From contig JAAENB010000767.1 in assembly GCA_024224995.1 (NCBI GenBank), forward strand, positions 1-29,830: 29,830 bases of DNA. Direction: 5' to 3'. Both the position numbers and the translations under genes were made by a program. The stretch comes from a bacterium (GTDB lineage Bacteria; Spirochaetota; UBA4802; UBA5550). Shown piece after piece: positions 12,101 to 29,830 of this stretch. The notes under the pieces were generated by a model. That model did not search any database and was not told the DNA's origin. It worked only from the letters and a program-made list of their open reading frames with translations. The stretch's first letter is position 1, and each line of letters opens with the position of its first letter.

Positions 12101-13924
12101 CTATTTTCTATACAAACCCCAGGGAAGAATAATCGTATAAGCGCGCATCACCGCGAATTTGGAAAACTCAGTGGTTTCGCCATAGATAGTATTGTTGAAC
12201 GTATCAACGGTTTTGGTAATATTCACCCAGGAGCCGGAAGAAGAATCCCACCCCATAAGCTTAAGCGAAGATTCCGAACCGCTCACTGCGGATTCATCAT
12301 AGGTAATACTCACCGTAGCTGAACCATTAAAAGAGGTCGTGGAGTCGATATCATAATATTTGCCGCTAATAACCTCGTACATAAACGGAGCAGTTCCCGA
12401 AGTAAGAGAAACCGAAGTATCGCCATCAACAACAACATCATCAAAATGAACCGTCACCCCTTCACCGGGATAAACAGAAGCAATGAAATCATTGGTAAAG
12501 GTAACAAAGGGAACCGGCTCAATCTCATCAGGAGAATAATAGAGCAGTGGAACCGTGGAAAGAGTATTTTGAGCCGAGAATACGGAATTGGGATGAGTAT
12601 AATCGGCAGATCCGCTAGCCGGAATAGACAGAGTCGCGGTAGTGGAAAACGGAAGATGAATATACGAAGGGTCGAGATAGAGCCACCTGTCATAAACAAA
12701 GATACCCGCGTACATATGCTGGCTGTAAGCAACTTTCCATTTCGATTCCATAATACCGCAGCGGTCAGCCGGAATACCAACCCGGTAGAGAAGAGTGGTA
12801 AAGAGCTGCGCCCTGCTCATACAGGTACCCCAATAAAAACCGCCATAATTAAGATACATCTGAGCGATACCTTCAATAGAAATCCACCCATGAGCGGAGA
12901 GCCAGTTTTGATAAAAGGTTTTAGCGGCATTGTAGTTCGCATCACTGCTGGTTAACTGATTGTCCTGCAGCCAGTTCCAGACCTGCCCGGCACGGCTCCA
13001 TATTTCAGCATCGACATTAGTGTAAGAAGTTGAAGCCCCAATATCATCCAGGAGCAGGGTGATGTTTGAAGAACTGGCGTATAGGTCAGAGAAAAAGGAT
13101 TCCCAGCCGGAGCTGCCCTCGCCATCCAGACGGAACCAGAATTCACCGTTATGCTGATATTCTTTTTTGCCTTCGAATTTAGTAGGAACGAGCAAGGGAT
13201 CGATATAAAACTGCCGTTCATAATTATACCGCCATAGTACCTGGTAATCGTACAGCCCCCAATCGTAAATAAAGACATTGTCGATATGACCGTAGAAGTA
13301 GCGGCTTCCGTAGCGGCCAATGAGAACTTCAGCGCTGCTGGTAGAAAGAGTACCTGAAAAAGCCTCAGACCCGTCGAGCTGGCCGTTAAGATAAACTTTA
13401 ATAGTAGAACCGTTCCAGGAAACAGCAATATGCTGCCAGGTATCAGCTTCAATGGGAGTACTGCCGTAGACAACATGGGTATTGCTGCCGGAATCGGTAA
13501 GGACCGATCTAATAGTGCCGGGATAAATATCAAGGGAATAGACCCCGCCGATACCGGTCTGGCCGGCATTCCAGCCCTTATGAACAATATACCTGCCGTT
13601 GGCAGTTCTGGGATTGATCCATGCCATGATAGTAATGCCGTTTGTAACATCCAGGGAAGAGTCATCGTAGACTTTGACGTAATCGCCCCAGCCGTCAAAG
13701 AAAAGAGAAGAGCCTTGAAAACCGGCATCCCAGGAGGCATTATAAATAGTCCCGGTATTGCTGTTGCTTGAAGAGTCATAGGCAGAAGTGCCGCTGCCTT
13801 CGTTAAAGTACCATAATCCCTCAAGACCCGCGAAAGCAGTGGAATTGAGCGGAAAAATAGCCAGAACACAAAGGGCAAAAACAAAAATTTTACGCCCCGC
13901 AAAACTACTAAATTTTTTTTTCAT
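12101..13924 (-). CDS. Secreted LamG-transglutaminase-like multidomain protein
   Basis: This 607-residue protein has a signal peptide (KIFVFALCVLAIFPLNSTAFA). Residues 34-225 form a concanavalin/LamG-like domain (LWYFNEGSGTSAYDSS, ITIMAWINP, WQHIAVSWNG, VLIGRYG). Residues 300-425 form a transglutaminase-like cysteine peptidase fold with a complete triad: C368 (WGTCMSRAQ), H403 (QHMYAGIFV) and D418 (LYLDPSY). The C-terminus (about 470-600) is a beta-rich domain ending TTEFSKFAVM, like those found near the end of secreted adhesive or ZU5-like proteins. It probably binds a surface glycan or protein and cuts or cross-links peptide substrates. ATG 13924 follows CCGGAGG. It stands alone with its own promoter. 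Confidence 0.85.
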   Translation of the reverse strand: MKKKFSSFAGRKIFVFALCVLAIFPLNSTAFAGLEGLWYFNEGSGTSAYDSSSNSNTGTIYNASWDAGFQGSSLFFDGWGDYVKVYDDSSLDVTNGITIMAWINPRTANGRYIVHKGWNAGQTGIGGVYSLDIYPGTIRSVLTDSGSNTHVVYGSTPIEADTWQHIAVSWNGSTIKVYLNGQLDGSEAFSGTLSTSSAEVLIGRYGSRYFYGHIDNVFIYDWGLYDYQVLWRYNYERQFYIDPLLVPTKFEGKKEYQHNGEFWFRLDGEGSSGWESFFSDLYASSSNITLLLDDIGASTSYTNVDAEIWSRAGQVWNWLQDNQLTSSDANYNAAKTFYQNWLSAHGWISIEGIAQMYLNYGGFYWGTCMSRAQLFTTLLYRVGIPADRCGIMESKWKVAYSQHMYAGIFVYDRWLYLDPSYIHLPFSTTATLSIPASGSADYTHPNSVFSAQNTLSTVPLLYYSPDEIEPVPFVTFTNDFIASVYPGEGVTVHFDDVVVDGDTSVSLTSGTAPFMYEVISGKYYDIDSTTSFNGSATVSITYDESAVSGSESSLKLMGWDSSSGSWVNITKTVDTFNNTIYGETTEFSKFAVMRAYTIILPWGLYRK

Positions 13925-15204: not shown

Positions 15205-18200
15205 TTAGTAGGCAACAAGTATTGGAGCTCTTTTTAGAGTTGTAGTTCCGTCACCTAACTGACCATAATAATTATAGCCCCATACCCAGGCTGTACCGTC
15301 AGATTTTATGGCAGCGGACAAATATTCTCCTGCACTTATTTTTGTGACGCCGGAAAGAGTAGGAATAACAGTAGGAGTTGGTAAGGTTGTTGAGCCATTG
15401 TTGCCTAATTGTCCCTGGCTGTTACTGCCCCAAGCCCAGACCGTACCATCGGACTTGATAGCTAAGGAGTGATCGCGGTATCCAGCTGCTATTGCAGTAA
15501 TATCGGAAAGGGTTGATGCCTGGACAACGCCTTCTATGGACGATGTTATGCCGGTGCCTAATTGTCCCTGGCTGTTATATCCCCATGCCCAAACAGTTCC
15601 GTCTGATTTTAAGGCTATACAATGATACTGGCCAACTGACACGGATGTTATATCTGAAAGAGCAGTCAGTTGGGTGGGGGTTGAATTGTTTGTTCTCGTT
15701 CCATCACCCAGCTGTCCGTAATAATTATATCCCCATGCCCACACAGTACCATCGGATTTAATGGCAATGGAAAATGAAGAGCTGGCATAGATCATTTTTA
15801 TATCAGTAATGGCAGTAACCCTCACAGGAAAGTGCTGTGTACTGGTGGTGCCGTCTCCAAGCTCGCCATAGTTATTGTCTCCCCATGCCCACACAGTGCC
15901 ATCGGATTGTATGGCAAAGGAATGATTATTGCCTGCCTCAATGTGTATTATATTGGAAAGACTGGTAATCTGGACAGGGGTTTTCTCTAGTGAAGATGAA
16001 CCAGTACCTAATTGACCATAATTATATCCCCAGGCCCAGACTGTTCCATCCGATTTTAATGCTAAGGAATGATAGGAGCCTGTTTGAACAGCAATCACAT
16101 CAGTAAGACCGCTCACTGGAATCGGGGTTGAACTGTTGGTTGTAGTACCGTTACCAAGCTGGCCATAATAGTTATATCCCCACGCTAATACTGTCCCATC
16201 GGATTTGAGAAGCAGCATGTGTTTCGTTTCGGCGGAGACCTCCATACTTTCTTTTATAACATTTACATTAATAGAATTGGAGCCGGAAATGGTGCCAACT
16301 GTTGCCGTAACGCTAAGAGAATGAATACCCGTGTCAAGGGTGGAACCATAAACAATAGAAGAGCCGGTTTCACCGTTAATGAGAGTTCCATTTAAAAACC
16401 ATTCATAGCTGTCGACAGGGATGCTGGTGGTGGCGGTTGCCGTAAAAGTTTGCCCTTCAACAATAGCGGCAGGGGATACGCTTATTTCAACCAGTTCATT
16501 GATGGTCACCGTGAACAAGGCCGAACTTTCAACAAGGTCTTTTGTTACCGTAACGGCAAGCGTATATTCTCCTGTTTCAAGACCGGAACCAAATTCAATA
16601 GAAGAACCGGTTTCACCATCAATAAGAGAATTGTCCAGGTACCATCTATAATTGTCAACAGCGACATTTGCTGCGGCCGTTACAGTGAGGGTCTGCCCTT
16701 CTAGAATGGAGGTGGCCGGAGCCTGTAATTCAACATGGTAGGGATTAACGGTAAAAGTGAATGTCCCTGATTTATTGACCGAATTTTTTGTTACACTAAC
16801 GGAAAGTGAATATTCCCCGGCAGCAAGGTCATTGCCCAGCGTAATTGAGGAACCGGTCTCACCCGAAATGGGACTATTGTTTAAAGACCATTCATAGCTG
16901 TCCACACCGGAATTTAAAACAGAAGTAACCGTAATAGACCCTCCTTTCAGGATTGAATTAACCGGAGCCTGTAATTCAACGGTAAGCGGCAGAATGGTAA
17001 TAACAGCAGAGCTCGACCGGGCAGCAGAACCGTTTGTAATTGATGAGGTAAGTGTATATTCCCCGGCAGCAAGCCCGTCACCAATTGTTGCTGAAGAGCC
17101 TGTTTCTTCCGTAAGAACATTTCCGTTCAAGGACCAGGAATAACTATCTACGGAAAAATTGGCTGTTGCCGTAGCGGTAGCGGTTTCCCCTTCAATTATT
17201 GAATCTGTTGAGAACTGTGTCTCAAGAGTAAGTGGGCTAATGGTAAAAGTATCTGTATCAGACCGGGTAACAATCCCTTTGTTAATACGGACTTCCAGCG
17301 TATATGAGCCTGGGGCAAGCGCGGAGCTTTGATTAAGCACAAGACTTGAACCGGTTTCACCATCAAGAAGGGAACCGTTTAAGTACCACTCATAGGAGTC
17401 GGCCTCAAGAGAAGCATTCGTGGAGACTGTAACCGGAGTTCCTTCCAGTATCTCGTCCGCGAAATCATCGATGGAGACGGCCAGGGGAACCGTGTTCAGG
17501 TCAAACAGAACCTTTTCGGAACTCACAACCGCGTCTTTCCATATAATAACTTCCAGTTGATGAGTACCGGGGAGTAAATCCCTGCCGTATATGGTAAGGG
17601 AACTGGTGTTTTCACCGTCAAGAATTTCGTTGTTCAGTCTCCATTCAAAGCGGTCTATCATATCTACAGAGGTGTTAAGAGGAATAGCAGATACGATCAT
17701 ACCACTCGACAGTACCAATTCATCAATAATACCACTGATGGCGATTTTTATCGGTCTATTAATTTCATCTTCAATTATAATGGAGCCGCCGCCGTTGGAA
17801 ATTTGACTGAGAATAAATTCTTTTTCAATGGGAATACCCGCGTAAAAGCAAATAGTATTATGATAATTTGCAACCGGGGCGTAACTATTGCTGACTATGT
17901 CCTTGAGAACCAGCTCCAGTTCAAAAAAACCGGCTGGGACTTGCCCGTTAAATGACGCGTTGGTTTTAGTATTGTTAAGAGAAAAAGAAAGATCTGTTGT
18001 GCCGGTAATAACACCGCCGCTGTCTTTTTCAATTAAGGTGCCGGAAACAACAGGATCAACCAGTTCCATAGCGCTGAGATTAACGGAAAAATTAGCGCTT
18101 GAGTACCCCTGGATGTTCCGAATGGTAACGGCAGTGCTGGAATGCCGACCCGGGTTAATGACAAAAGAAGAGATCCCCAGGCCAATAACCGCGCCGCTGC

Positions 18201-18588
18201 TGTTCTTTGCGTTTACGGAAACGTTCCACGTACCCGGTTTTAATATAACAGGACCGGAACTGGTCTCCGTACCTGAAACATCGTTTAACGCAACCTCCGG
18301 ATATGGATACAGGTTATGATTAAACGAAATATCATAAGCGGCAATAGCCAGGTCTTCATCGGCCGGTGATATTGTTTTGCCGGACTTCCCCTGCTGCCCG
18401 CCTAAAGAAGCGTCCGGGCTTAAGGATAAAGAAATGGAACCGGTTTGCTCCGAGGAACCGGAACCGGTCAGGTTATCCGTACCGCAGCTAACAAACGCGA
18501 AGGATAATAAAAAGAATAGAGAGAAAAGAATTGTACCGGGGTACAAAAAGTTTTTTTTGAGAATTTTTGTAAAAGAGATGGGTGTCAT
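15205..18588 (-). CDS. Large lipoprotein: six Ig/PKD-like repeats and a seven-blade RCC1 propeller
   Basis: This 1127-residue protein starts at ATG 18588 behind CCGGAGG; an open frame to 18708 lies at or before the promoter start and is not coding. A signal with a lipobox-like FVSC (C35) anchors it as a lipoprotein. After a Ser/Thr-rich N-terminus come six repeats of about 85 residues, each with W-x-LN-x(4)-GETGSS (for example WYLNGSLLDGETGSS), Ig or PKD-like. The last 340 residues hold seven RCC1 repeats, each with KSDGTVWAWG and GQLGxG, enough for one closed seven-blade beta-propeller. The likely role is surface adhesion or protein binding; no ligand can be named. The repeats are also similar at DNA level, so repeat number may vary between strains. 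Confidence 0.9.
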   Translation of the reverse strand: MTPISFTKILKKNFLYPGTILFSLFFLLSFAFVSCGTDNLTGSGSSEQTGSISLSLSPDASLGGQQGKSGKTISPADEDLAIAAYDISFNHNLYPYPEVALNDVSGTETSSGPVILKPGTWNVSVNAKNSSGAVIGLGISSFVINPGRHSSTAVTIRNIQGYSSANFSVNLSAMELVDPVVSGTLIEKDSGGVITGTTDLSFSLNNTKTNASFNGQVPAGFFELELVLKDIVSNSYAPVANYHNTICFYAGIPIEKEFILSQISNGGGSIIIEDEINRPIKIAISGIIDELVLSSGMIVSAIPLNTSVDMIDRFEWRLNNEILDGENTSSLTIYGRDLLPGTHQLEVIIWKDAVVSSEKVLFDLNTVPLAVSIDDFADEILEGTPVTVSTNASLEADSYEWYLNGSLLDGETGSSLVLNQSSALAPGSYTLEVRINKGIVTRSDTDTFTISPLTLETQFSTDSIIEGETATATATANFSVDSYSWSLNGNVLTEETGSSATIGDGLAAGEYTLTSSITNGSAARSSSAVITILPLTVELQAPVNSILKGGSITVTSVLNSGVDSYEWSLNNSPISGETGSSITLGNDLAAGEYSLSVSVTKNSVNKSGTFTFTVNPYHVELQAPATSILEGQTLTVTAAANVAVDNYRWYLDNSLIDGETGSSIEFGSGLETGEYTLAVTVTKDLVESSALFTVTINELVEISVSPAAIVEGQTFTATATTSIPVDSYEWFLNGTLINGETGSSIVYGSTLDTGIHSLSVTATVGTISGSNSINVNVIKESMEVSAETKHMLLLKSDGTVLAWGYNYYGQLGNGTTTNSSTPIPVSGLTDVIAVQTGSYHSLALKSDGTVWAWGYNYGQLGTGSSSLEKTPVQITSLSNIIHIEAGNNHSFAIQSDGTVWAWGDNNYGELGDGTTSTQHFPVRVTAITDIKMIYASSSFSIAIKSDGTVWAWGYNYYGQLGDGTRTNNSTPTQLTALSDITSVSVGQYHCIALKSDGTVWAWGYNSQGQLGTGITSSIEGVVQASTLSDITAIAAGYRDHSLAIKSDGTVWAWGSNSQGQLGNNGSTTLPTPTVIPTLSGVTKISAGEYLSAAIKSDGTAWVWGYNYYGQLGDGTTTLKRAPILVAY

Positions 18589-18713
18589 TTGAGCCTCCGG
18601 AAATAATATATAAACACAGCTATAGCGCTGTATTGAGCAAAAGTAAAAACATGTATGAATAATCTTTCCGTGGGTAAACAGGCTTAAAATGTATTGTTGG
18701 GTTATCAATAATA

Positions 18714-18851: not shown

Positions 18852-20159
18852 TTAGATCTGCACGGAACAATAATTTTCCGAAGCCCATCTTTTGAGCATC
18901 AGCAGTTCTTTATCCGAAGGCCACCGGTTGTGCTTACCCCTTGCCTGGACTATTTTTTTTGATCGAATATTGACTTCAATGGTCAAAACCCGCTCCGAAT
19001 TCTTTTTAAGCGACCAGATCGCGGTAGAACCGGAAGAGATATGGGAGGCGTAACTGAACACGCAGTGTCCCATAGATCTACCTTCGGCAGCAAGATCTTT
19101 CGACGTAAGGATCTCTACCATAGACCAGGACGTAACCAGGAAGTTTCCTTCTTTTGTACGTCGTTTAAATTCCCAGCTTTTTTCCTCAAACCCCGAAGGC
19201 GTAAAAAAAGTGCTTCTGAGTTTTTTGATTAAAGCCAGTTCCCGGTGCCACTCTTCCATGCCCCGGGTCATTGCGGAAACAGTCCTTCCCGTAACGGAAA
19301 AGGCGCTGTTTTCTTCTTTGCAATGACGAAAATAATCAATCAAGGGACCGGCCATGGCCCTGTCGATATCCGGGTTATTGCAAAACCATTGAATCACCGT
19401 GAGCCAGAACGGCTCGTCATTCATAAAGCTCCGGCCAAGGCGAGTGGCAGTGATGGCCTGAGCCAGGCTGTGCTCGCCCTGGAACGCTTTAACCTGTGCG
19501 AAACGCAGCGCTTCAAAGAATTCCATTTTACCCGGAGACCGGAGAAACTGGTGGCACATGCGCCGTGTCAGGGGAACCGGGATTATTCCGGATGAAACAG
19601 CTTTGTAAACGCTGCCGCCTTCAGCAGCGTATTTAAAAAATTTAATCAGCTTATCCGTAGTATCACCCGGTTCCAGGAAAAAGAGAGAATAAAAGAACCG
19701 GGGAACCGGGAATTTCACCAGGAGATAATCAACCAGGGACCGGAATTGAGTTTCAATAGACCGGCCTTTGGCCTGCCATGTCTTAAGCTCCCCGGACCAT
19801 TGAACAGATGCCAGCATCCAGTAGGCGCCCAGGTATCGTTCATCGATAAGTTTGGGAGCATTGTTTGCCAGGAATTTAAGCAGGTTTTTTAACCTGAGTT
19901 TCCTCGCGTGCTCATAACAATCTTCCAGTAAGGGAATAAGCGAGTTAAACCGTTCTTTAACCGCGGGAGAAAGATGCGTATAGCGCTGCTGGAATAAGAG
20001 GTCAATCATTTCCCCGGAGATTTCTTTTGGTCTGGAAAAGGCTTCCCGCATCGCGGCATTCCGGGCATATTCTTTTCTCCTGTCATGCTCGTGAACCATC
20101 CACTGAGAGCCTCGCGCTTCCACACCTTTTTGCTTTTTCTTGTTTTTATTTTTAGCCAT
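18852..20159 (-). CDS. PcfJ-like domain protein
   Basis: This 435-residue basic protein starts MAKNKNKKKQKG and is helical through most of its length. The C-terminal 100 residues carry the PcfJ-like core, EGRSMGHCVFSYASHISSG (H365, C366), followed by a strand pair ending in ARGKHNRWPSD. PcfJ-like proteins are common in plasmids, phages and chromosomes and have no settled function. The N-terminal part matches no domain I know. ATG 20159 is preceded by a weak ribosome site and a leader of about 310 bases from a promoter at 20476-20504, suggesting post-transcriptional control. Confidence 0.8.
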   Translation of the reverse strand: MAKNKNKKKQKGVEARGSQWMVHEHDRRKEYARNAAMREAFSRPKEISGEMIDLLFQQRYTHLSPAVKERFNSLIPLLEDCYEHARKLRLKNLLKFLANNAPKLIDERYLGAYWMLASVQWSGELKTWQAKGRSIETQFRSLVDYLLVKFPVPRFFYSLFFLEPGDTTDKLIKFFKYAAEGGSVYKAVSSGIIPVPLTRRMCHQFLRSPGKMEFFEALRFAQVKAFQGEHSLAQAITATRLGRSFMNDEPFWLTVIQWFCNNPDIDRAMAGPLIDYFRHCKEENSAFSVTGRTVSAMTRGMEEWHRELALIKKLRSTFFTPSGFEEKSWEFKRRTKEGNFLVTSWSMVEILTSKDLAAEGRSMGHCVFSYASHISSGSTAIWSLKKNSERVLTIEVNIRSKKIVQARGKHNRWPSDKELLMLKRWASENYCSVQI

Positions 20160-20539: not shown

Positions 20540-20568
20540 TTGACAAATAAGTTTTTTTCATATATTCT
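20540..20568 (+). promoter_or_regulatory. Sigma-70 promoter of the ankyrin gene
   Basis: TTGACA (20540-20545), 17 bases, TATTCT (20563-20568). It overlaps the longest open frame, which shows that the true start must be downstream, at 20591. Confidence 0.65.
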
Positions 20569-20590
20569 AAAAGTTAAAGGGGAAGGAATT

Positions 20591-22693
20591 ATGAAAAAAA
20601 TACTGTTTATAACTGCTATCATCCTGATCTCGGTATCGGTATACGCGAACAATGACCGGAGCCTGTATTACGCGGCCGGGAAGGGGGATCTGAAATATGT
20701 GAAAAAATATTTAAAAAAAGGGGCGGATATAAACTACCGGCATGGCCGTCAAAAGATGACTCCGCTGCATTACGCGATCTATAAATCGAATGGAGAGGTA
20801 GTGAAGTATCTTCTCCGTAAGGGAGCAAAGGTGGATATCGTTGATAAAAACGGAAATACACCGCTTCATGAAGCAGCCAAAAAAGCGGATCTAGCCATGA
20901 TTAAACTCCTGGTAAGTAAGGGAGCCAATGTCAACGCGCGGAACGTAATCAGGTACCTCCCAATAGGATACGCCTACTCCAAAAACAGTCTCCCCGTAAT
21001 GCGATACCTGCTGGAAAAAGGCTCATCGGTAAATTCAAATTGTTCAAGCTGTTCCGGCACAATCCTGCACCGGGCGTTAAAAAAAGATCAAATTGGTATT
21101 GTAAAACTCTTACTGGCAAATGCCACCAAAAAAGAAATAAACATGCGAAAGAAATACCGGTACTCGCCCCTGGTAGTGATGGCAGTAGAAAAAGGAAACC
21201 TGGACCTGGTGAAGCTGTTAAAAAAGAAGGGTGCCCATATGACGGTCAAAAGTGATATGAAATGGACCCTGCAGCAGGTGGCGCAAAACAGGGGACACAT
21301 CGACATTCTGCAGTTTTTACGGGGAGGGAAATCCGGACCCAACGTGAGGGACCACCTGGGAAGAACTATTCTCCACCTGGCCGCGGGTAAGGGCAGTCTT
21401 AAAAAGGTAAAAGAGCTGGTAAACCAGGGAGCCGATATCCACGCGAAGGATAAGCTGTGGAGTACACCGCTCCATAGCGCCGCAGGAAGCGGCTCTCTTG
21501 AAACAGTGAAGTACCTGGTAGAGAAGGGAGCGAACGTTAACGCGAAAACCAAACTGTCAAAAACAATGCCCCTGTATCACGCGGTTGCAGGCAGTTCCCG
21601 GCCCGGGCTAAGCAGTGAATATGCGGCAGTGGTGAAGTATATGGTTAGCAAAGGAGCGACGTTGCAGTCTAAATATAATTATATACACGCGGCAGCGTCT
21701 CATGGCTCTCTTGAAATGTTCAAGTACCTGCTCAGTAAAGGGCTCGACATGCGGGCAAAGGACAGGCTGGGAAACAGTCCCATTCATATAGCAGCGAGAG
21801 TTAGACGAAAAGATATATTGGAATACCTGCTTAAAAATAAGGTTGATATAAATACACAGGGACATGCGGGAGAAACACCGCTAATGCAGGTGGTAAAAAG
21901 AAATTATGTAAAAACAGTAGAGTACCTTCTGGAGCGGGGAGCATCTGTCGATTTGAGGGATACATGGTCATTTCCAAATACACCGCTCATGAAAGCTTGT
22001 GAAAAGGGATATCTTAAGACAGTAAAAGTCTTGATCGCGAAAAAGGCGGATATCAACGCGATTAATGATTACCAGTCACCGCTGGTCCTTGCGGCAAGAA
22101 AAAAACACCTGGCAATAGTTCAATACCTGGTGAAAAGCGGCGCCGATGTGAATAAAAGCACCGGGCATGGGTATACGCCGCTGCTGGCAGCCTTGACAAA
22201 GAAAAAAGGAGAGTGGAAAAAACCAACGAAAAATTATTTTCCAATAATAAAACTCCTGGTATCGAAGGGAGCAGCGGTATCGAAATTGAAACTGGACCGG
22301 AAAAATACACCGGGATGGAAAACATATATCCATGCGGCAGCAGGAAAGCGGGCACCGCTAAAGGTGATAAAATATCTTGTTTCCGGAGGGGCTTTGATTC
22401 AAAAAAAGGGATGGACGCCGCTGCACCAGGCACTGATGAGTGTCGCGGATATGCGGACAATCAAATACCTTGTGGGGCAGGGAATAAGCGTGAATACTCG
22501 AGATAAAACCGGGAGTACCCCATTACATGTTGCGGCAAAAAAATATCCCGATTACGCGGTTATTCATTACCTGGTGAGCAAGGGAGCAAACGTACACGCG
22601 GTTGATTCGAGCAGGAAAAAGCCTTTGTTTTATTACACGCGAAATCCGGACGGAGGAAACCGCCGGGTAATCCGAATGCTGAAAGGAAAATAA
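20591..22693 (+). CDS. Exported ankyrin-repeat protein
   Basis: This 700-residue protein starts at ATG 20591 behind GGGGAAGGAATT. The upstream in-frame codons overlap the promoter and are excluded. A signal peptide (MKKILFITAIILISVSVYA) is followed almost to the end by about 20 ankyrin repeats of the TPLHxAA...VxYLLxKGAxVN type. Some are degenerate (residues about 110-240). There is no enzymatic domain. Exported ankyrin proteins usually bind partner proteins in the periplasm or at the surface; the partner is unknown. It converges on the STAS gene with 9 bp between stops and no visible terminator. Confidence 0.92.
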   Translation: MKKILFITAIILISVSVYANNDRSLYYAAGKGDLKYVKKYLKKGADINYRHGRQKMTPLHYAIYKSNGEVVKYLLRKGAKVDIVDKNGNTPLHEAAKKADLAMIKLLVSKGANVNARNVIRYLPIGYAYSKNSLPVMRYLLEKGSSVNSNCSSCSGTILHRALKKDQIGIVKLLLANATKKEINMRKKYRYSPLVVMAVEKGNLDLVKLLKKKGAHMTVKSDMKWTLQQVAQNRGHIDILQFLRGGKSGPNVRDHLGRTILHLAAGKGSLKKVKELVNQGADIHAKDKLWSTPLHSAAGSGSLETVKYLVEKGANVNAKTKLSKTMPLYHAVAGSSRPGLSSEYAAVVKYMVSKGATLQSKYNYIHAAASHGSLEMFKYLLSKGLDMRAKDRLGNSPIHIAARVRRKDILEYLLKNKVDINTQGHAGETPLMQVVKRNYVKTVEYLLERGASVDLRDTWSFPNTPLMKACEKGYLKTVKVLIAKKADINAINDYQSPLVLAARKKHLAIVQYLVKSGADVNKSTGHGYTPLLAALTKKKGEWKKPTKNYFPIIKLLVSKGAAVSKLKLDRKNTPGWKTYIHAAAGKRAPLKVIKYLVSGGALIQKKGWTPLHQALMSVADMRTIKYLVGQGISVNTRDKTGSTPLHVAAKKYPDYAVIHYLVSKGANVHAVDSSRKKPLFYYTRNPDGGNRRVIRMLKGK

Positions 22694-23622: not shown

Positions 23623-25047
23623 ATGGGAAATCCAAAAGGGTTTTTAAATATAAAAAGAGAAGAGCCGGGTTATAGACCGGTAGAAGAACGGATACAGGAT
23701 TATAGCGAAGTAGAAAAGCAGCTGCCCGAAGACGCGCGCAGACAGCAGGCTTCGCGCTGTATGGATTGCGGAGTGCCTTTCTGTCACTGGGCATGCCCGG
23801 TGGGAAATGTCATGCCGGAATGGCAGGATAAGCTGTACCGGGGAGACTGGAAAGGAGCCTATGATATTTTGCAGGAAACGAATAATTTTCCCGAATTTAC
23901 CGGCAGAGTTTGCCCGGCACTGTGTGAGGCAGCCTGCGTTCTCTCTATAGAAGAGGATTCCGTAACAATACGGCAGAATGAGCTGGATCTAATAGAAAAG
24001 GCATTTAACGAAGGGTATGTAAAACCACAGCCCCCAAAGGTGAGGACCGGTAAAAAGGTGGCGGTAATTGGCGGCGGCCCGGCCGGACTGGCATGCGCTG
24101 ATATATTAAATAAAAAAGGCCATACCACAGTAATTTATGAGGCCGATGAAAACGTAGGCGGATATTTACGCTATGGAATTCCCGATTTTAAGCTGGATAA
24201 ATCCTTCCTCGATCGCCGGATGAACATCCTGGAAGAAGAGGGACTTATTATAAAAACAAATGTAACCGCAGGAAAAGATATTTCAATTAAGGAATTACAG
24301 GATGAATACGATGCCATTTGTATAACAATCGGGGCCAGGGAGGCACGGGACCTGCCAATCGAAGGAAGAGACCTGGATGGGGTGCATTTCGCGCTGGAAT
24401 ACTTACTACAGCAAAACAAAATAGTTCAAAAAGACGACATTCCTGAAGATGATCTTATTAAGGCCCTGAATAAGAATGTGATAGTTATCGGCGGCGGAGA
24501 TACAGGCTCGGACTGTGTGGGAACCGCCAACAGGCAGGGAGCGCATAGAATAACCCAGCTGGAACTGCTGCCGCAGCCGCCCGAGCACAGAAGTGAAACC
24601 GACCCATGGCCTCTCTGGCCAAAACTGTATAAGACTTCCAGTTCTCATGAAGAAGGGTGTGAGAGGATGTGGAATGTTTCAACAAAGAAGTTTATTGGTG
24701 AGAACGGCAAAATAAAGAAGATAAGCGCTGTGAAAGTGGAATGGAAAAAGGATGATAGCGGGAAATATACAATGGCAGAGGTCCCGGGATCGGAATTTGA
24801 GTTAAAAGCCGACCTGGTCTTGCTTGCAATGGGATTTGTCCATGTTCCTCACGAAGGACTGGTTAAAGACCTGGGCCTGGAGCTCGATCCCAGGGGAAAT
24901 ATCGGCATAGATGAAAATTGTATGACAAGTATAGAGGGTGTATTCGCCGGAGGAGATACAACACGGGGAGCATCCCTGGTTGTGTGGGCAATACAGGACG
25001 GAAGAGAAGCTGCCCGGGGCATTGACCGGTATTTGTCTGAGGAATAG
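23623..25047 (+). CDS. gltD: Glutamate synthase small-subunit-type NAD(P)H:acceptor oxidoreductase
   Basis: This 474-residue protein has two N-terminal [4Fe-4S] cysteine sets (C46, C49, C54, C58; C97, C101, C105), an FAD motif KVAVIGGGPAGLACA (about 145-159) and an NADPH motif VIVIGGGDTGSDCVG (about 287-301). Size and order fit GltD, which feeds electrons from NADPH to the large subunit GltB for glutamate formation. No gltB is next to it, and its strong promoter shows it is transcribed from its own start. It could serve a GltB encoded elsewhere or another partner, as GltD homologues also do in other oxidoreductases. ATG 23623 follows GGAGGAAGCAAT. Confidence 0.92.
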   Translation: MGNPKGFLNIKREEPGYRPVEERIQDYSEVEKQLPEDARRQQASRCMDCGVPFCHWACPVGNVMPEWQDKLYRGDWKGAYDILQETNNFPEFTGRVCPALCEAACVLSIEEDSVTIRQNELDLIEKAFNEGYVKPQPPKVRTGKKVAVIGGGPAGLACADILNKKGHTTVIYEADENVGGYLRYGIPDFKLDKSFLDRRMNILEEEGLIIKTNVTAGKDISIKELQDEYDAICITIGAREARDLPIEGRDLDGVHFALEYLLQQNKIVQKDDIPEDDLIKALNKNVIVIGGGDTGSDCVGTANRQGAHRITQLELLPQPPEHRSETDPWPLWPKLYKTSSSHEEGCERMWNVSTKKFIGENGKIKKISAVKVEWKKDDSGKYTMAEVPGSEFELKADLVLLAMGFVHVPHEGLVKDLGLELDPRGNIGIDENCMTSIEGVFAGGDTTRGASLVVWAIQDGREAARGIDRYLSEE

Positions 25048-26787: not shown

Positions 26788-26841
26788 ATGAGTGTTGAAT
26801 TTACCTGGAGCGAAAAGAAAAACAATATACGGGTTACTTAA
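26788..26841 (+). pseudogene. brnT: brnT toxin remnant (internal deletion)
   Basis: ATG 26788 reads MSVEFTWSEKKNNIRVT and stops after 17 residues. The start matches the BrnT N-terminus (FxWDExKNxxNxxKH type). In another frame just after it, KRKTIYGLLK resembles the typical BrnT end that runs into brnA. The 70 or so residues between are missing, including the ribonuclease active-site region. The deletion fuses start and end of the toxin gene and leaves the antitoxin intact. Confidence 0.7.
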
Positions 26842-26842
26842 A

Positions 26843-27052
26843 ATGAGAGAAGAATATGATTTTTCAAATTCAAAAAAGAATCCACATGCAAAAAGATTTA
26901 AAAAACAAATTACTATAAGACTTGATGTGGATACAGTTGAGTATTTCAAAAGTCAAGCAGATGAAACAGGAATACCTTATCAAAGCTTAATTAATTTGTA
27001 TTTAAGAGATTGTGCTATCCAACAAAGAAAACTGGAAATGAGTTGGAAATAA
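26843..27052 (+). CDS. brnA: BrnA family antitoxin (orphan)
   Basis: This 69-residue protein has the complete BrnA pattern: EEYDFSNSKKNPHAKRFKKQ, then TIRLDVDTVEYFKSQADETG and IPYQSLINLYLRDCA. The C-terminal part is a ribbon-helix-helix DNA-binding domain. BrnA neutralises the BrnT ribonuclease and represses its own promoter. Here the toxin is a remnant, so BrnA may survive as a repressor, or as an anti-addiction antitoxin against another BrnT. I start it at ATG 26843; an in-frame GTG at 26792 lies within the toxin remnant. It ends 7 bp before pgeF. Confidence 0.85.
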   Translation: MREEYDFSNSKKNPHAKRFKKQITIRLDVDTVEYFKSQADETGIPYQSLINLYLRDCAIQQRKLEMSWK

Positions 27053-27841: not shown

Positions 27842-28012
27842 TTAAACCTTAATAACAACCATATCTTCCTGAAGTGCGATCATCTCACCATAGCCGTTGC
27901 AATATTTACATTCAAAATGTGCCTTTTTTGGCATGCCGTTTTTACCATATAGAAACCTGGTGTGTTCACCTCTGCCCTCACAATGCTCGCAAGTAATGAG
28001 TTTAATCTTCAT
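27842..28012 (-). CDS. 56-aa DnaJ-type zinc-finger microprotein (copy 2)
   Basis: A 56-residue ORF from ATG 28012 behind GAGGT. It holds two CxxCxGxG motifs, CEHCEGRG (C8, C11) and CKYCNGYG (C35, C38), which together make one zinc site as in half of a DnaJ central domain. The C-terminus is EDMVVIKV. It is about 61% identical (34 of 56, by hand) to the ORF at 28148-28318. Equal length, conserved cysteines and conserved ends show it is a real gene and a tandem duplicate. Likely third gene of the sigma-54 operon. Confidence 0.85.
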   Translation of the reverse strand: MKIKLITCEHCEGRGEHTRFLYGKNGMPKKAHFECKYCNGYGEMIALQEDMVVIKV

Positions 28013-28147
28013 ATTTTATACCTCGCATTATTTAATTTGCAGGCCGCATCAAGAGCAGCCGGTTGACTCTATAATTGAACATTTTATGTAAATAAATCGT
28101 TAAGTAAAGAATAATTATAAAAAACTTTGGGGACAGATTTGTCTTGC

Positions 28148-28318
28148 TTAAACCTTGACCACAACCATATCCTCAGGCAGCGACAGCATCTCCCCATACC
28201 CATTACAATGATGGCACTTGACATTTTTCTTTTCCGGCATACCGTCGTTACCATACTGAAACTTTTTCAGTTCACCTCGGCCTTCGCAGTAATCACATAA
28301 GACAAGTTTAACTTTCAT
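28148..28318 (-). CDS. 56-aa DnaJ-type zinc-finger microprotein (copy 1)
   Basis: A 56-residue ORF from ATG 28318 behind AAGGAG. Motifs CDYCEGRG (C8, C11) and CHHCNGYG (C35, C38) should bind one zinc ion; the C-terminus is EDMVVVKV. There is no J-domain or other DnaJ part. Such a fold could bind unfolded protein, RNA or another protein. It starts 25 bp after the 122-aa gene, so the two share a transcript. The 135 bp to copy 2 hold a GACAGATTTGTCTTG element at 28132-28146. Confidence 0.85.
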   Translation of the reverse strand: MKVKLVLCDYCEGRGELKKFQYGNDGMPEKKNVKCHHCNGYGEMLSLPEDMVVVKV

Positions 28319-28343
28319 AAGAAATACTCCTTTTATGTTTTTA

Positions 28344-28712
28344 TTAGCCTGCTTCCCGGAAGTTTAATATTTTATCATATATAAACTCCCGGACTTCAGG
28401 GTCTATTTCCGAGCTTGCGTATTCAAATCTCCTTGCCAGTTCCAGCATGGGGAATTCTCCATTCGTCACCAGGATAGGGGACATTTTCCGCCGCCCGTGA
28501 ATCTCCCCGTCGTCAACTCTTGAATGAAGAAAACCTTTTTCATTATGCCATGTTAGCGCGTGGCTGTTATGAAGTTTATCATACGTAAGTTGAAAAATAG
28601 CAATAGAATCATTTTCATCGAACCAGACCGAGATGCTAAAATATTCATCGGAAAAACATCGAATGCGGTAATTTTTTTCCGAATTTCGTGCGTTCTTGAT
28701 CTCGTAAAGCAT
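28344..28712 (-). CDS. Conserved 122-aa protein of unknown function, first gene of sigma-54 operon
   Basis: The protein contains SDEYFSISVWFDENDSIAIF, QLTYDKLHNSHALTWHNEKG and SRVDDGE, then SPILVTNGEFP. I recall a widespread uncharacterised family with the same WYDE...FQLCYDK..ALTW...VDDGE pattern, but can name no function. It is cytoplasmic and beta-rich. A -24/-12 promoter lies 126 bp upstream, and the zinc-finger microprotein gene follows after 25 bp. The ribosome site is poor (AGGAGATTATTTTAATATG is spaced too far). Confidence 0.75.
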   Translation of the reverse strand: MLYEIKNARNSEKNYRIRCFSDEYFSISVWFDENDSIAIFQLTYDKLHNSHALTWHNEKGFLHSRVDDGEIHGRRKMSPILVTNGEFPMLELARRFEYASSEIDPEVREFIYDKILNFREAG

Positions 28713-28837
28713 ATTAAAATAATCTCCTGATTTCCTGATTAAGAAGCCTTTTTACTGTTATGCTACCCGGTTTATAAAAAAAATTCAAGATAAAAACAAT
28801 CTCTATTTCTATCATATTGTTGCTATACTTATATTAT

Positions 28838-28852
28838 GCAGATTTTGTGCCA
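28838..28852 (-). promoter_or_regulatory. Sigma-54 (-24/-12) promoter
   Basis: Minus strand TGGCAC-AAAAT-CTGC matches TGGCAC-N5-TTGC with one mismatch and correct GG-to-GC spacing. RNA would start near 28827, about 115 bases before the 122-aa gene. An activator gene and paired upstream sites lie just upstream, which raises confidence. Confidence 0.75.
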
Positions 28853-28932
28853 GATGATAAAAATAATGAAAAATAATCTGTTTTTTTGATATTTTAATGG
28901 TTTTCATTACTTATGAATAAATATCAATGAAT

Positions 28933-28945
28933 AATCAACGATTTA
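28933..28945. promoter_or_regulatory. IHF-type bending site
   Basis: AATCAACGATTTA fits the IHF consensus WATCAANNNNTTR at every position. It lies between the -24 element and the TGTCA sites, where IHF normally bends sigma-54 promoter DNA. A 10-bp dyad TAAATATCAA/TTGATATTTA (28918-28927, 28950-28959) surrounds it. The tract is AT-rich, so a chance match is possible. Confidence 0.5.
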
Positions 28946-29010
28946 TTTGTTGATATTTAACCGGGGCACGCTGGCGGGGAGTTAACTTTACTGTAAAGGC
29001 GTTTTATAAG

Positions 29011-29045
29011 TGTCAGAAACTGACAGCAGGTGTCAATTCCTGACA
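29011..29045. promoter_or_regulatory. Paired activator sites TGTCA-N5-TGACA
   Basis: TGTCA-GAAAC-TGACA (29011-29025) and TGTCA-ATTCC-TGACA (29031-29045) are two identical-format dyads, both preceded by G, with centres 20 bp apart (two helical turns). They lie about 160-190 bp upstream of the -24/-12 promoter, a normal distance for enhancer sites. They are also just after the activator gene and could double as a weak terminator hairpin for it, although no U-run follows. Confidence 0.7.
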
Positions 29046-29049
29046 CCTA

Positions 29050-29830
29050 TTAATCATCTATATCATCGTATTCATCAAGAACATGAGTGTTCCTTTCCAG
29101 GACCTTTCGTACTTTTTCCCGGTGATTTTTCGTATCTTCGGTAGATTCTTTATATACTTTTTGGGCTATTTTGGATATATTTCCAGTGTATTCTTTGAAC
29201 ATTCCAAGAACAGCCGCGTCTTCAAAGTCCTTTAACATTGCGGGAACATTTCCTCCGTAATAATCGACCAGGTCTCCAAGAGTATCTTTTATCTGGTCCC
29301 TGTCTTTATATTTTCTAAAACCCTCTTTTACAATTTCAAAGGTGATAATATTGTCATTGGTCCTGGCAATGATCTCGAATTTTTTGAGAAGATTTTTCAG
29401 TTCCCTGGCATTACCGGGCCAGGTATATTTTTTTAAGAGTTCAAGCGCGTCTTTTTCAATAGTTACGCTCCGGTCATTAATATAATGATCAATAATAAGA
29501 TAAATATCTTCCTCACCGCGCTCTCGAAGCGGCGGCAGCTCAACCTGGTAAACATGAATACGAAAGAAAAGGTCTTCCCGGAATTTTCCTTCCTCTACCA
29601 GTTTCTGGAGATTGATATTTGTGGCTAATATGAGCCTGAAATCGACGATTTTCGGGGCATTGCTTCCCAGGGGATTAATCTTTTTTTCTTCAAGAACTTT
29701 CAGTAATTTTGATTGTTGATCAAGAGAAAGATTTTCTATTTCATCAAGGAAAAGGGTTCCGTTATGCGCCTGTTCCATCTTCCCTTTTCGCGAACCCACA
29801 GCCCCGGTAAAGGCTCCTTTCGTATAACCA
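29050..29830 (-). CDS. Sigma-54-dependent transcriptional activator, AAA+ domain (5' end cut by window)
   Basis: The open frame runs to the window edge, so the N-terminal sensor domain and Walker A are missing. Visible parts in order: GYTKGAFTGAVGSRKG with the GAFTGA loop that contacts sigma-54; Walker B GTLFLDEIENL; sensor I ILATNINL; arginine finger FREDLFFRI and LPPLRERGEEDI; sensor II WPGNARELKN. The C-terminus GNISKIAQKV...REKVRKVLERN looks like a Fis-type helix-turn-helix with an insertion. The gene ends 4 bp from the paired TGTCA sites and probably activates the downstream three-gene operon. The inducing signal cannot be read here. Confidence 0.93.
   Translation of the reverse strand, partial: GYTKGAFTGAVGSRKGKMEQAHNGTLFLDEIENLSLDQQSKLLKVLEEKKINPLGSNAPKIVDFRLILATNINLQKLVEEGKFREDLFFRIHVYQVELPPLRERGEEDIYLIIDHYINDRSVTIEKDALELLKKYTWPGNARELKNLLKKFEIIARTNDNIITFEIVKEGFRKYKDRDQIKDTLGDLVDYYGGNVPAMLKDFEDAAVLGMFKEYTGNISKIAQKVYKESTEDTKNHREKVRKVLERNTHVLDEYDDIDD

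Follow-up and report, generated by a model that had tools for sequence, protein, structure and literature searches.

The closest described systems are the NtrC-family sigma-54 circuits of Desulfovibrio vulgaris. In the portion of the source that was available (PMC4641369), TGT/ACA half-sites 9 bp apart form one motif group of sigma-54 activators, many activator genes are adjacent to their promoters, and the commonest class of distance between site and promoter is 100 nt or less. A second point of comparison is anti-TRAP, a zinc protein of 53 residues with two CXXCXGXG motifs, as described in the accessible part of another report (PMC2896485).

The locus considered here belongs to a DNA stretch of 29,830 nucleotides, which was analysed as a whole and is hereafter called the window (features in Table 1). 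With the D. vulgaris circuits, as far as the available portion of that source describes them (PMC4641369), it shares an AAA+ activator with GAFTGA, TGT-N9-ACA dyads, a -24/-12 promoter and a target located beside the regulator. The likeness extends to the ortholog of the activator in another genome (G152), which displays receivers and an overlapping kinase gene (see below). The locus differs in three respects: the C-terminal segment of its activator matches no Pfam DNA-binding domain above cut-off, its targets are uncharacterised small genes, and 159 nt separate the end of its nearer dyad from the promoter, which is outside the commonest D. vulgaris distance class in the same partial source (PMC4641369). 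Our preferred reading, to which we attribute a probability of about 0.7, is that of a local and ordinary sigma-54 unit, in which the neighbouring activator, the dyads and the promoter together bring about induction of the small genes. The activator is probably of NtrC-family kind, and the whole a two-component sigma-54 circuit of known type.

Table 1. Positions of the regulatory elements and genes discussed in the text, numbered along the window.
Feature	Position	Strand	Remarks
Sigma-54 activator fragment, C-terminal 259 aa	29050..29829	-	AAA+ with GAFTGA, AAA lid, conserved C-terminal segment
Dyad 1, TGTCA-N5-TGACA, TGTCAGGAATTGACA	29031..29045	strandless	Candidate enhancer site, centre about -212
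Dyad 2, TGTCA-N5-TGACA, TGTCAGTTTCTGACA	29011..29025	strandless	Candidate enhancer site, centre about -192
IHF consensus match	28933..28945	+	Chance level
Sigma-70-like sites	28860-28833, 28108-28081	-	
-24/-12 promoter, TGGCACAAAATCTGCA	28837..28852	-	Predicted transcription start about 28826
122-aa gene, unnamed widespread family	28344..28712	-	
Microprotein 1, 56 aa, zinc knuckle, Cys 8, 11, 35, 38	28148..28318	-	25 nt after 122-aa gene
Microprotein 2, 56 aa, zinc knuckle, tandem copy	27842..28012	-	135 nt past microprotein 1
BrnA/CopG-type antitoxin gene	26788-27052, including preceding ORF	+	Pfam BrnA_antitoxin 40 bits

Both dyads were exact and were spaced by 20 bp, i.e. about two helical turns. 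They were the sole matches in the whole window with one mismatch allowed; the corresponding shuffle control gave a mean of 0.60 matches, and two or more in 8 of 100 shuffles. Chance was further assessed by simulating the intergenic region (337 nt) 200,000 times under a first-order Markov model. At least one exact dyad was obtained with P = 1.7e-4 and two dyads in 0/200,000 simulations, which bears out the pair that an earlier note on this DNA had placed after the activator: it is exact and above chance. Among 1,628,070 bases of other loci (overlapping loci included), no tandem dyad was recorded at up to four mismatches.

The promoter was likewise the sole match of the searched pattern in the window at one mismatch or fewer, the GG-N10-GC core within TGGCAC-N5-TTGC being found at 28852-28838 with one mismatch. 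Since this loose pattern was present in 47 of 100 whole-window shuffles, the weight rests on the strict form being matched exactly and at an appropriate position, for which P was 3.5e-5 in the 337-nt intergenic region (first-order Markov). At this level above chance, the -24/-12 promoter described previously is indeed present. IHF sites between enhancer and sigma-54 promoter are frequent, though not universal. The consensus site mentioned in the earlier note exists as a match, but three such sites were counted in the window for 2.77 expected and a match in the intergenic region had a P of about 0.07 (Markov); number and P being at chance level, it is not taken as evidence.

This region also bears on an alternative in which the 122-aa operon would depend on an ordinary sigma-70 promoter, while the dyads would be RNA hairpins, or an attenuator or terminator ending the activator gene. 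Judged from sequence, the dyads are able to form hairpins directly after the activator stop codon, and there are two minus-strand sigma-70-like sites (Table 1), of which the first, a 9-of-12 match, overlaps the sigma-54 promoter. Yet sigma-70-like sites occurred in the window at chance number (5 versus 5.1), a terminator-like site was searched for at the dyads and not found, and both the helical spacing of the dyads and the strict sigma-54 promoter argue against this explanation, which we hold to be very unlikely.

That the minus strand encodes an AAA+ activator with an intact GAFTGA loop, as read initially, was confirmed by translation of the fragment and by its Pfam scores (Sigma54_activat, PF00158, 127.4 bits; AAA lid, 47.4 bits). 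Its N-terminus lies past the window edge. The last 96 aa matched no family above cut-off among Pfam, NCBIfam and PADLOC profiles, and the search for a C-terminal Pfam DNA-binding domain above cut-off was negative in these residues as well as in the G152 ortholog. This C-terminal segment is conserved between the two proteins.

Profile libraries attributed a tempting RtcR/CARF label to the fragment, which our analysis corrects. RtcR was its best NCBIfam model (202.0 bits for a curated score of 650, the fragment covering half of the model), 22 bits ahead of PrdR (180.3 bits), and its three best PADLOC models were RtcR/CARF ones (205.4, 138.9 and 113.1 bits). If taken at face value, these scores would point to an RtcR-type sensor with a CARF domain and to an operon functioning as a variant RNA-repair or defence unit. 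Three other activators, trimmed at the same point, served as controls; a receiver domain is present in P0060 and P0063 and absent from P0064. On the best PADLOC model their fragments reached 271.7, 258.1 and 228.7 bits, and on NCBIfam RtcR 208.7, 258.8 and 215.1 bits, in each case above the window fragment. Their top NCBIfam model was PrdR, RtcR leading for none of the three; its lead for the window fragment speaks for the label. Because the controls scored higher and the domains of the ortholog are different (receivers, with no CARF-like match), the label was considered unspecific and the RtcR/CARF identity was set aside; similarity to this type of activator is that of the AAA+ core. The small genes, for their part, displayed no PADLOC match above noise. 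An RtcR-type, CARF-domain activator with a variant RNA-repair or defence operon is extremely improbable here.

A search of 392 sampled Spirochaetota genomes (threshold 1e-44, six candidates scored per genome) retrieved matches to the activator fragment in 14 of them. A clear ortholog was limited to G152, where residues 1-253 aligned with 344 bits; the 13 others displayed 153-164 bits with partial coverage. Further orthologs may have been missed since six candidates were scored per genome; in the class of G152, for which every candidate was scored, the ortholog was present in 1/46. Correspondence between this ortholog and the window activator amounted to 66%, including the unusual C-terminus (65% over 258 positions). 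The G152 protein is 611 aa long with two Response_reg stretches, and its gene overlaps another one coding for a GAF-HisKA-HATPase-receiver protein. From these two receivers and the overlapping kinase gene, the missing N-terminus of the window activator is probably a response-regulator part, a receiver-type domain being most likely on the basis of this one ortholog. None of the three small genes (122-aa and two 56-aa) occurred at the G152 activator locus, where dyads were found with two mismatches and none with fewer.

Tandem dyads with the spacing of the window were searched throughout G152 (4.3 Mb). A single place was found, with three mismatches and the same spacing, the reversed-pattern control giving 0. 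It is intergenic, and 189 nt after the end of the dyads starts TGGCACAATAGATGCAT, a promoter near-identical to that of the window, which reads TGGCACAAAATCTGCAT; it is followed by a ribosome-binding-like stretch and then by an ATG. For comparison, control loci contained 0.006 sigma-54 sites at one mismatch or fewer per 300 nt of each strand. The target gene, which reads MVTKDFK before the contig ends, differs from the 122-aa gene. G152 also carries two exact single dyads, neither of which displayed a sigma-54 site at up to two mismatches within 1 kb (none for L181; for L182, a 2-mismatch site lies at about 1.05 kb). This second genome suggests that tandem dyad and promoter would form the target unit of one activator, the link between dyads and activator coming from a single genome with an ortholog and a single, imperfect tandem match. 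Of the single regulon drawn in the earlier note, the sigma-54 enhancer/promoter unit is probably real and probably served by the adjacent activator, as the G152 unit indicates; no relative showed it tied to the three genes.

As a side observation, the G152 unit (L183 and L184) is flanked on one side by a divergently oriented, lipoprotein-like gene of 474 aa that contains repeated segments, and on the other by the target gene truncated at the contig end.

These data also bear on another explanation, namely that the promoter is sigma-54 dependent, but that either some other regulator owns the dyads or an activator encoded elsewhere fires the promoter, the neighbouring activator controlling other targets. 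Consistent with it, the G152 unit is located on contig C40 and the activator gene on contig C38, and the dyads at the activator locus itself have at least two mismatches. Spirochaetota genomes moreover carry several sigma-54 activators each, and exact tandem dyads were recorded in virus contigs that showed no match to the activator fragment. On the other hand, the unit recurs in the sole sampled genome possessing an ortholog, the C-terminal segment is conserved, and activators and their promoters are often found together according to the available part of the D. vulgaris source (PMC4641369). We consider control by a different regulator rather unlikely and retain the local sigma-54 unit.

Of the five virus contigs with an exact tandem dyad, L187 (IMGVR_UViG_3300044500_000058) displayed it at 1931-1965, together with a sigma-54 promoter with one mismatch at 2020-2034, which begins 89 nt past the first dyad base. 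This unit is possibly a phage promoter using host sigma-54. A sigma-54 site at two mismatches or fewer was absent within 500 nt of the tandem dyad in three of the five contigs, and another one had its single site, with two mismatches, on the opposite side of the dyads; tandem dyads alone are thus no proof of sigma-54 control. By reading, a terminase-like ORF was noticed near the dyad and promoter of L187. Contigs L186 (5551-5585) and L188 (328-362), from different samples, shared an identical 35-bp tandem TGTCA dyad, and neither displayed a sigma-54 site at up to two mismatches within 500 nt.

The 122-aa protein retrieved 57 database hits, its own entry counted, and residues E4, W30, D67 and G85 were invariant in these 57 sequences. 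Members occurred in contigs titled Spirochaetes, Elusimicrobia, Desulfobacteraceae, Gammaproteobacteria, Verrucomicrobia and others. Comparison of the protein with Pfam, NCBIfam and PADLOC gave no match above noise or cut-off. Its predicted model (pLDDT 83.3) consists of seven strands followed by two helices and revealed no convincing fold match; as a guess, the protein could be a soluble partner or an accessory protein. Genomes were scanned with a pattern derived from 23 of the 57 homologs, which provided 92 stretches and 84 relatives, the best 80 being kept; nearer relatives may have been missed, since the window's own protein does not match this pattern. The family was matched in 56 of the 392 Spirochaetota genomes, and G152 was not among these 56. 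Tandem copies of the family, 23-72 nt apart, were observed in the Spirochaetota genomes G111 (C21), G145 (C43) and G088 (C3).

Upstream regions of the family were examined from 114 matches in 110 loci, ten of the matches being dropped as duplicates or for lying less than 60 nt from a contig edge. A sigma-54 site with up to two mismatches preceded 3 of 104 homologs, which is no excess, since shuffles gave about 3.2 and the reverse strand gave 2. Likewise, no exact dyad was present within 600 nt of the homologs among the 104 upstream regions. With tblastn, the activator fragment matched 2 of the best 80 of 84 loci (L005 and L013), at 8-9 kb from the 122-aa gene, many of these 80 loci being short contigs or having cut flanks. 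As for recurring neighbours, no cluster was common to more than ten loci, mostly of Elusimicrobia, the family itself and opposite-strand frames being excluded.

The two microproteins were 61% identical. Among the 53 nucleotide differences between their genes, 30 were in third codon positions, dN was 0.23 and dS was saturated; this bias and these values indicate that both genes are coding and under purifying selection. The 122-aa ORF and the two 56-aa ORFs announced in the earlier note are in place, and the microproteins are coding. The compact operon proposed there would include microprotein 1, close behind the 122-aa gene; microprotein 2 would share the common transcript by presumption, since its ORF starts 135 nt after the previous end.

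Each microprotein displays two CXXCXGXG motifs (CDYCEGRG/CHHCNGYG and CEHCEGRG/CKYCNGYG), and resembles anti-TRAP (RtpA) by these two knuckles and by its similar size. Scores were nevertheless below the curated cut-offs, with 14.6 and 11.9 for a cut-off of 32 with anti-TRAP, and 14.4 and 13.6 for 65 with RtpA. The two knuckles are also those of the DnaJ cysteine-rich domain: DnaJ_CXXCXGXG (PF00684) gave 28.4 and 27.9 bits versus a cut-off of 32.7, and the protein database lists a precomputed PF00684 for microprotein 1. From cysteine pattern and size, our guess is that they may be small modulators of anti-TRAP type that carry zinc and bind proteins. The microproteins were not found outside the window in the databases and loci searched, which included the loci of the 122-aa family (0/80, tblastn). 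A scan of the collected loci for two CXXCXGXG motifs retrieved two DnaJ-like ORFs, with stop-to-stop lengths of 376 and 380 aa.

These observations weigh on a more ambitious proposal, in which the 122-aa family and the microproteins would constitute an undescribed signal-induced module, with a two-component sigma-54 switch and anti-TRAP-like modulators acting on the 122-aa protein or on a shared partner. The earlier note had seen here a self-contained module driving three genes. This is not supported: all three are missing from the locus of the G152 ortholog, and elsewhere the 122-aa family displayed neither promoter excess, nor dyads, nor a close activator. Conserved synteny, suggested there as a check, pointed the same way, the G152 ortholog not being adjacent to the 122-aa or microprotein genes; coming from one ortholog, this result counts against the module and leaves the circuit unaffected. 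As to the supposed role in stress response, nothing was found linking the switch to stress. The undescribed module is quite unlikely, and the link of the local sigma-54 unit to the three small genes is apparently specific to this lineage, as far as seen.

Other genes were noted in the window. The antitoxin gene (Table 1) is preceded by a 17-codon ORF at 26788-26841, which resembles the start of a BrnT-type toxin; this toxin partner appears to have been lost or truncated. Reading of translations revealed a 717-aa ankyrin-repeat-like protein (20540-22693, plus strand) and, at 15205-18708 on the minus strand, a protein of 1167 aa in which Ig-like and RCC1-like segments are repeated. The minus strand further encodes a PcfJ-like protein (18852-20159, 54 bits) and, at 12101-13924, a product carrying a Laminin_G_3 domain (78 bits). 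An oxidoreductase at 23623-25047, GltD-like by reading, has counterparts that are at most 72% identical in the G001 group (37/120 genomes at 1e-150) and at most 56% identical in the G016 group (12/118); by this comparison the window resembles Spirochaetota DNA.

In the local sigma-54 unit that we favour, the activator would be a response regulator, the receiver or receivers of which would accept phosphate from a GAF-containing histidine kinase whose gene would lie just upstream, past the window edge. It would then bind the two helically phased TGTCA-N5-TGACA sites right behind its own gene and, at the -24/-12 promoter (28852-28837), remodel sigma-54 RNA polymerase. This promoter would induce the 122-aa gene together with the first, and probably both, zinc-knuckle microproteins. 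Binding, the pairing of receiver and kinase at this locus, the extent of the operon and the action of the activator at the promoter are what we infer from sequence.

The tandem dyad and promoter of G152 turn what was a guess from sequence into a testable regulon. The 122-aa family, widespread and without a Pfam, NCBIfam or PADLOC name, is the more lasting lead.
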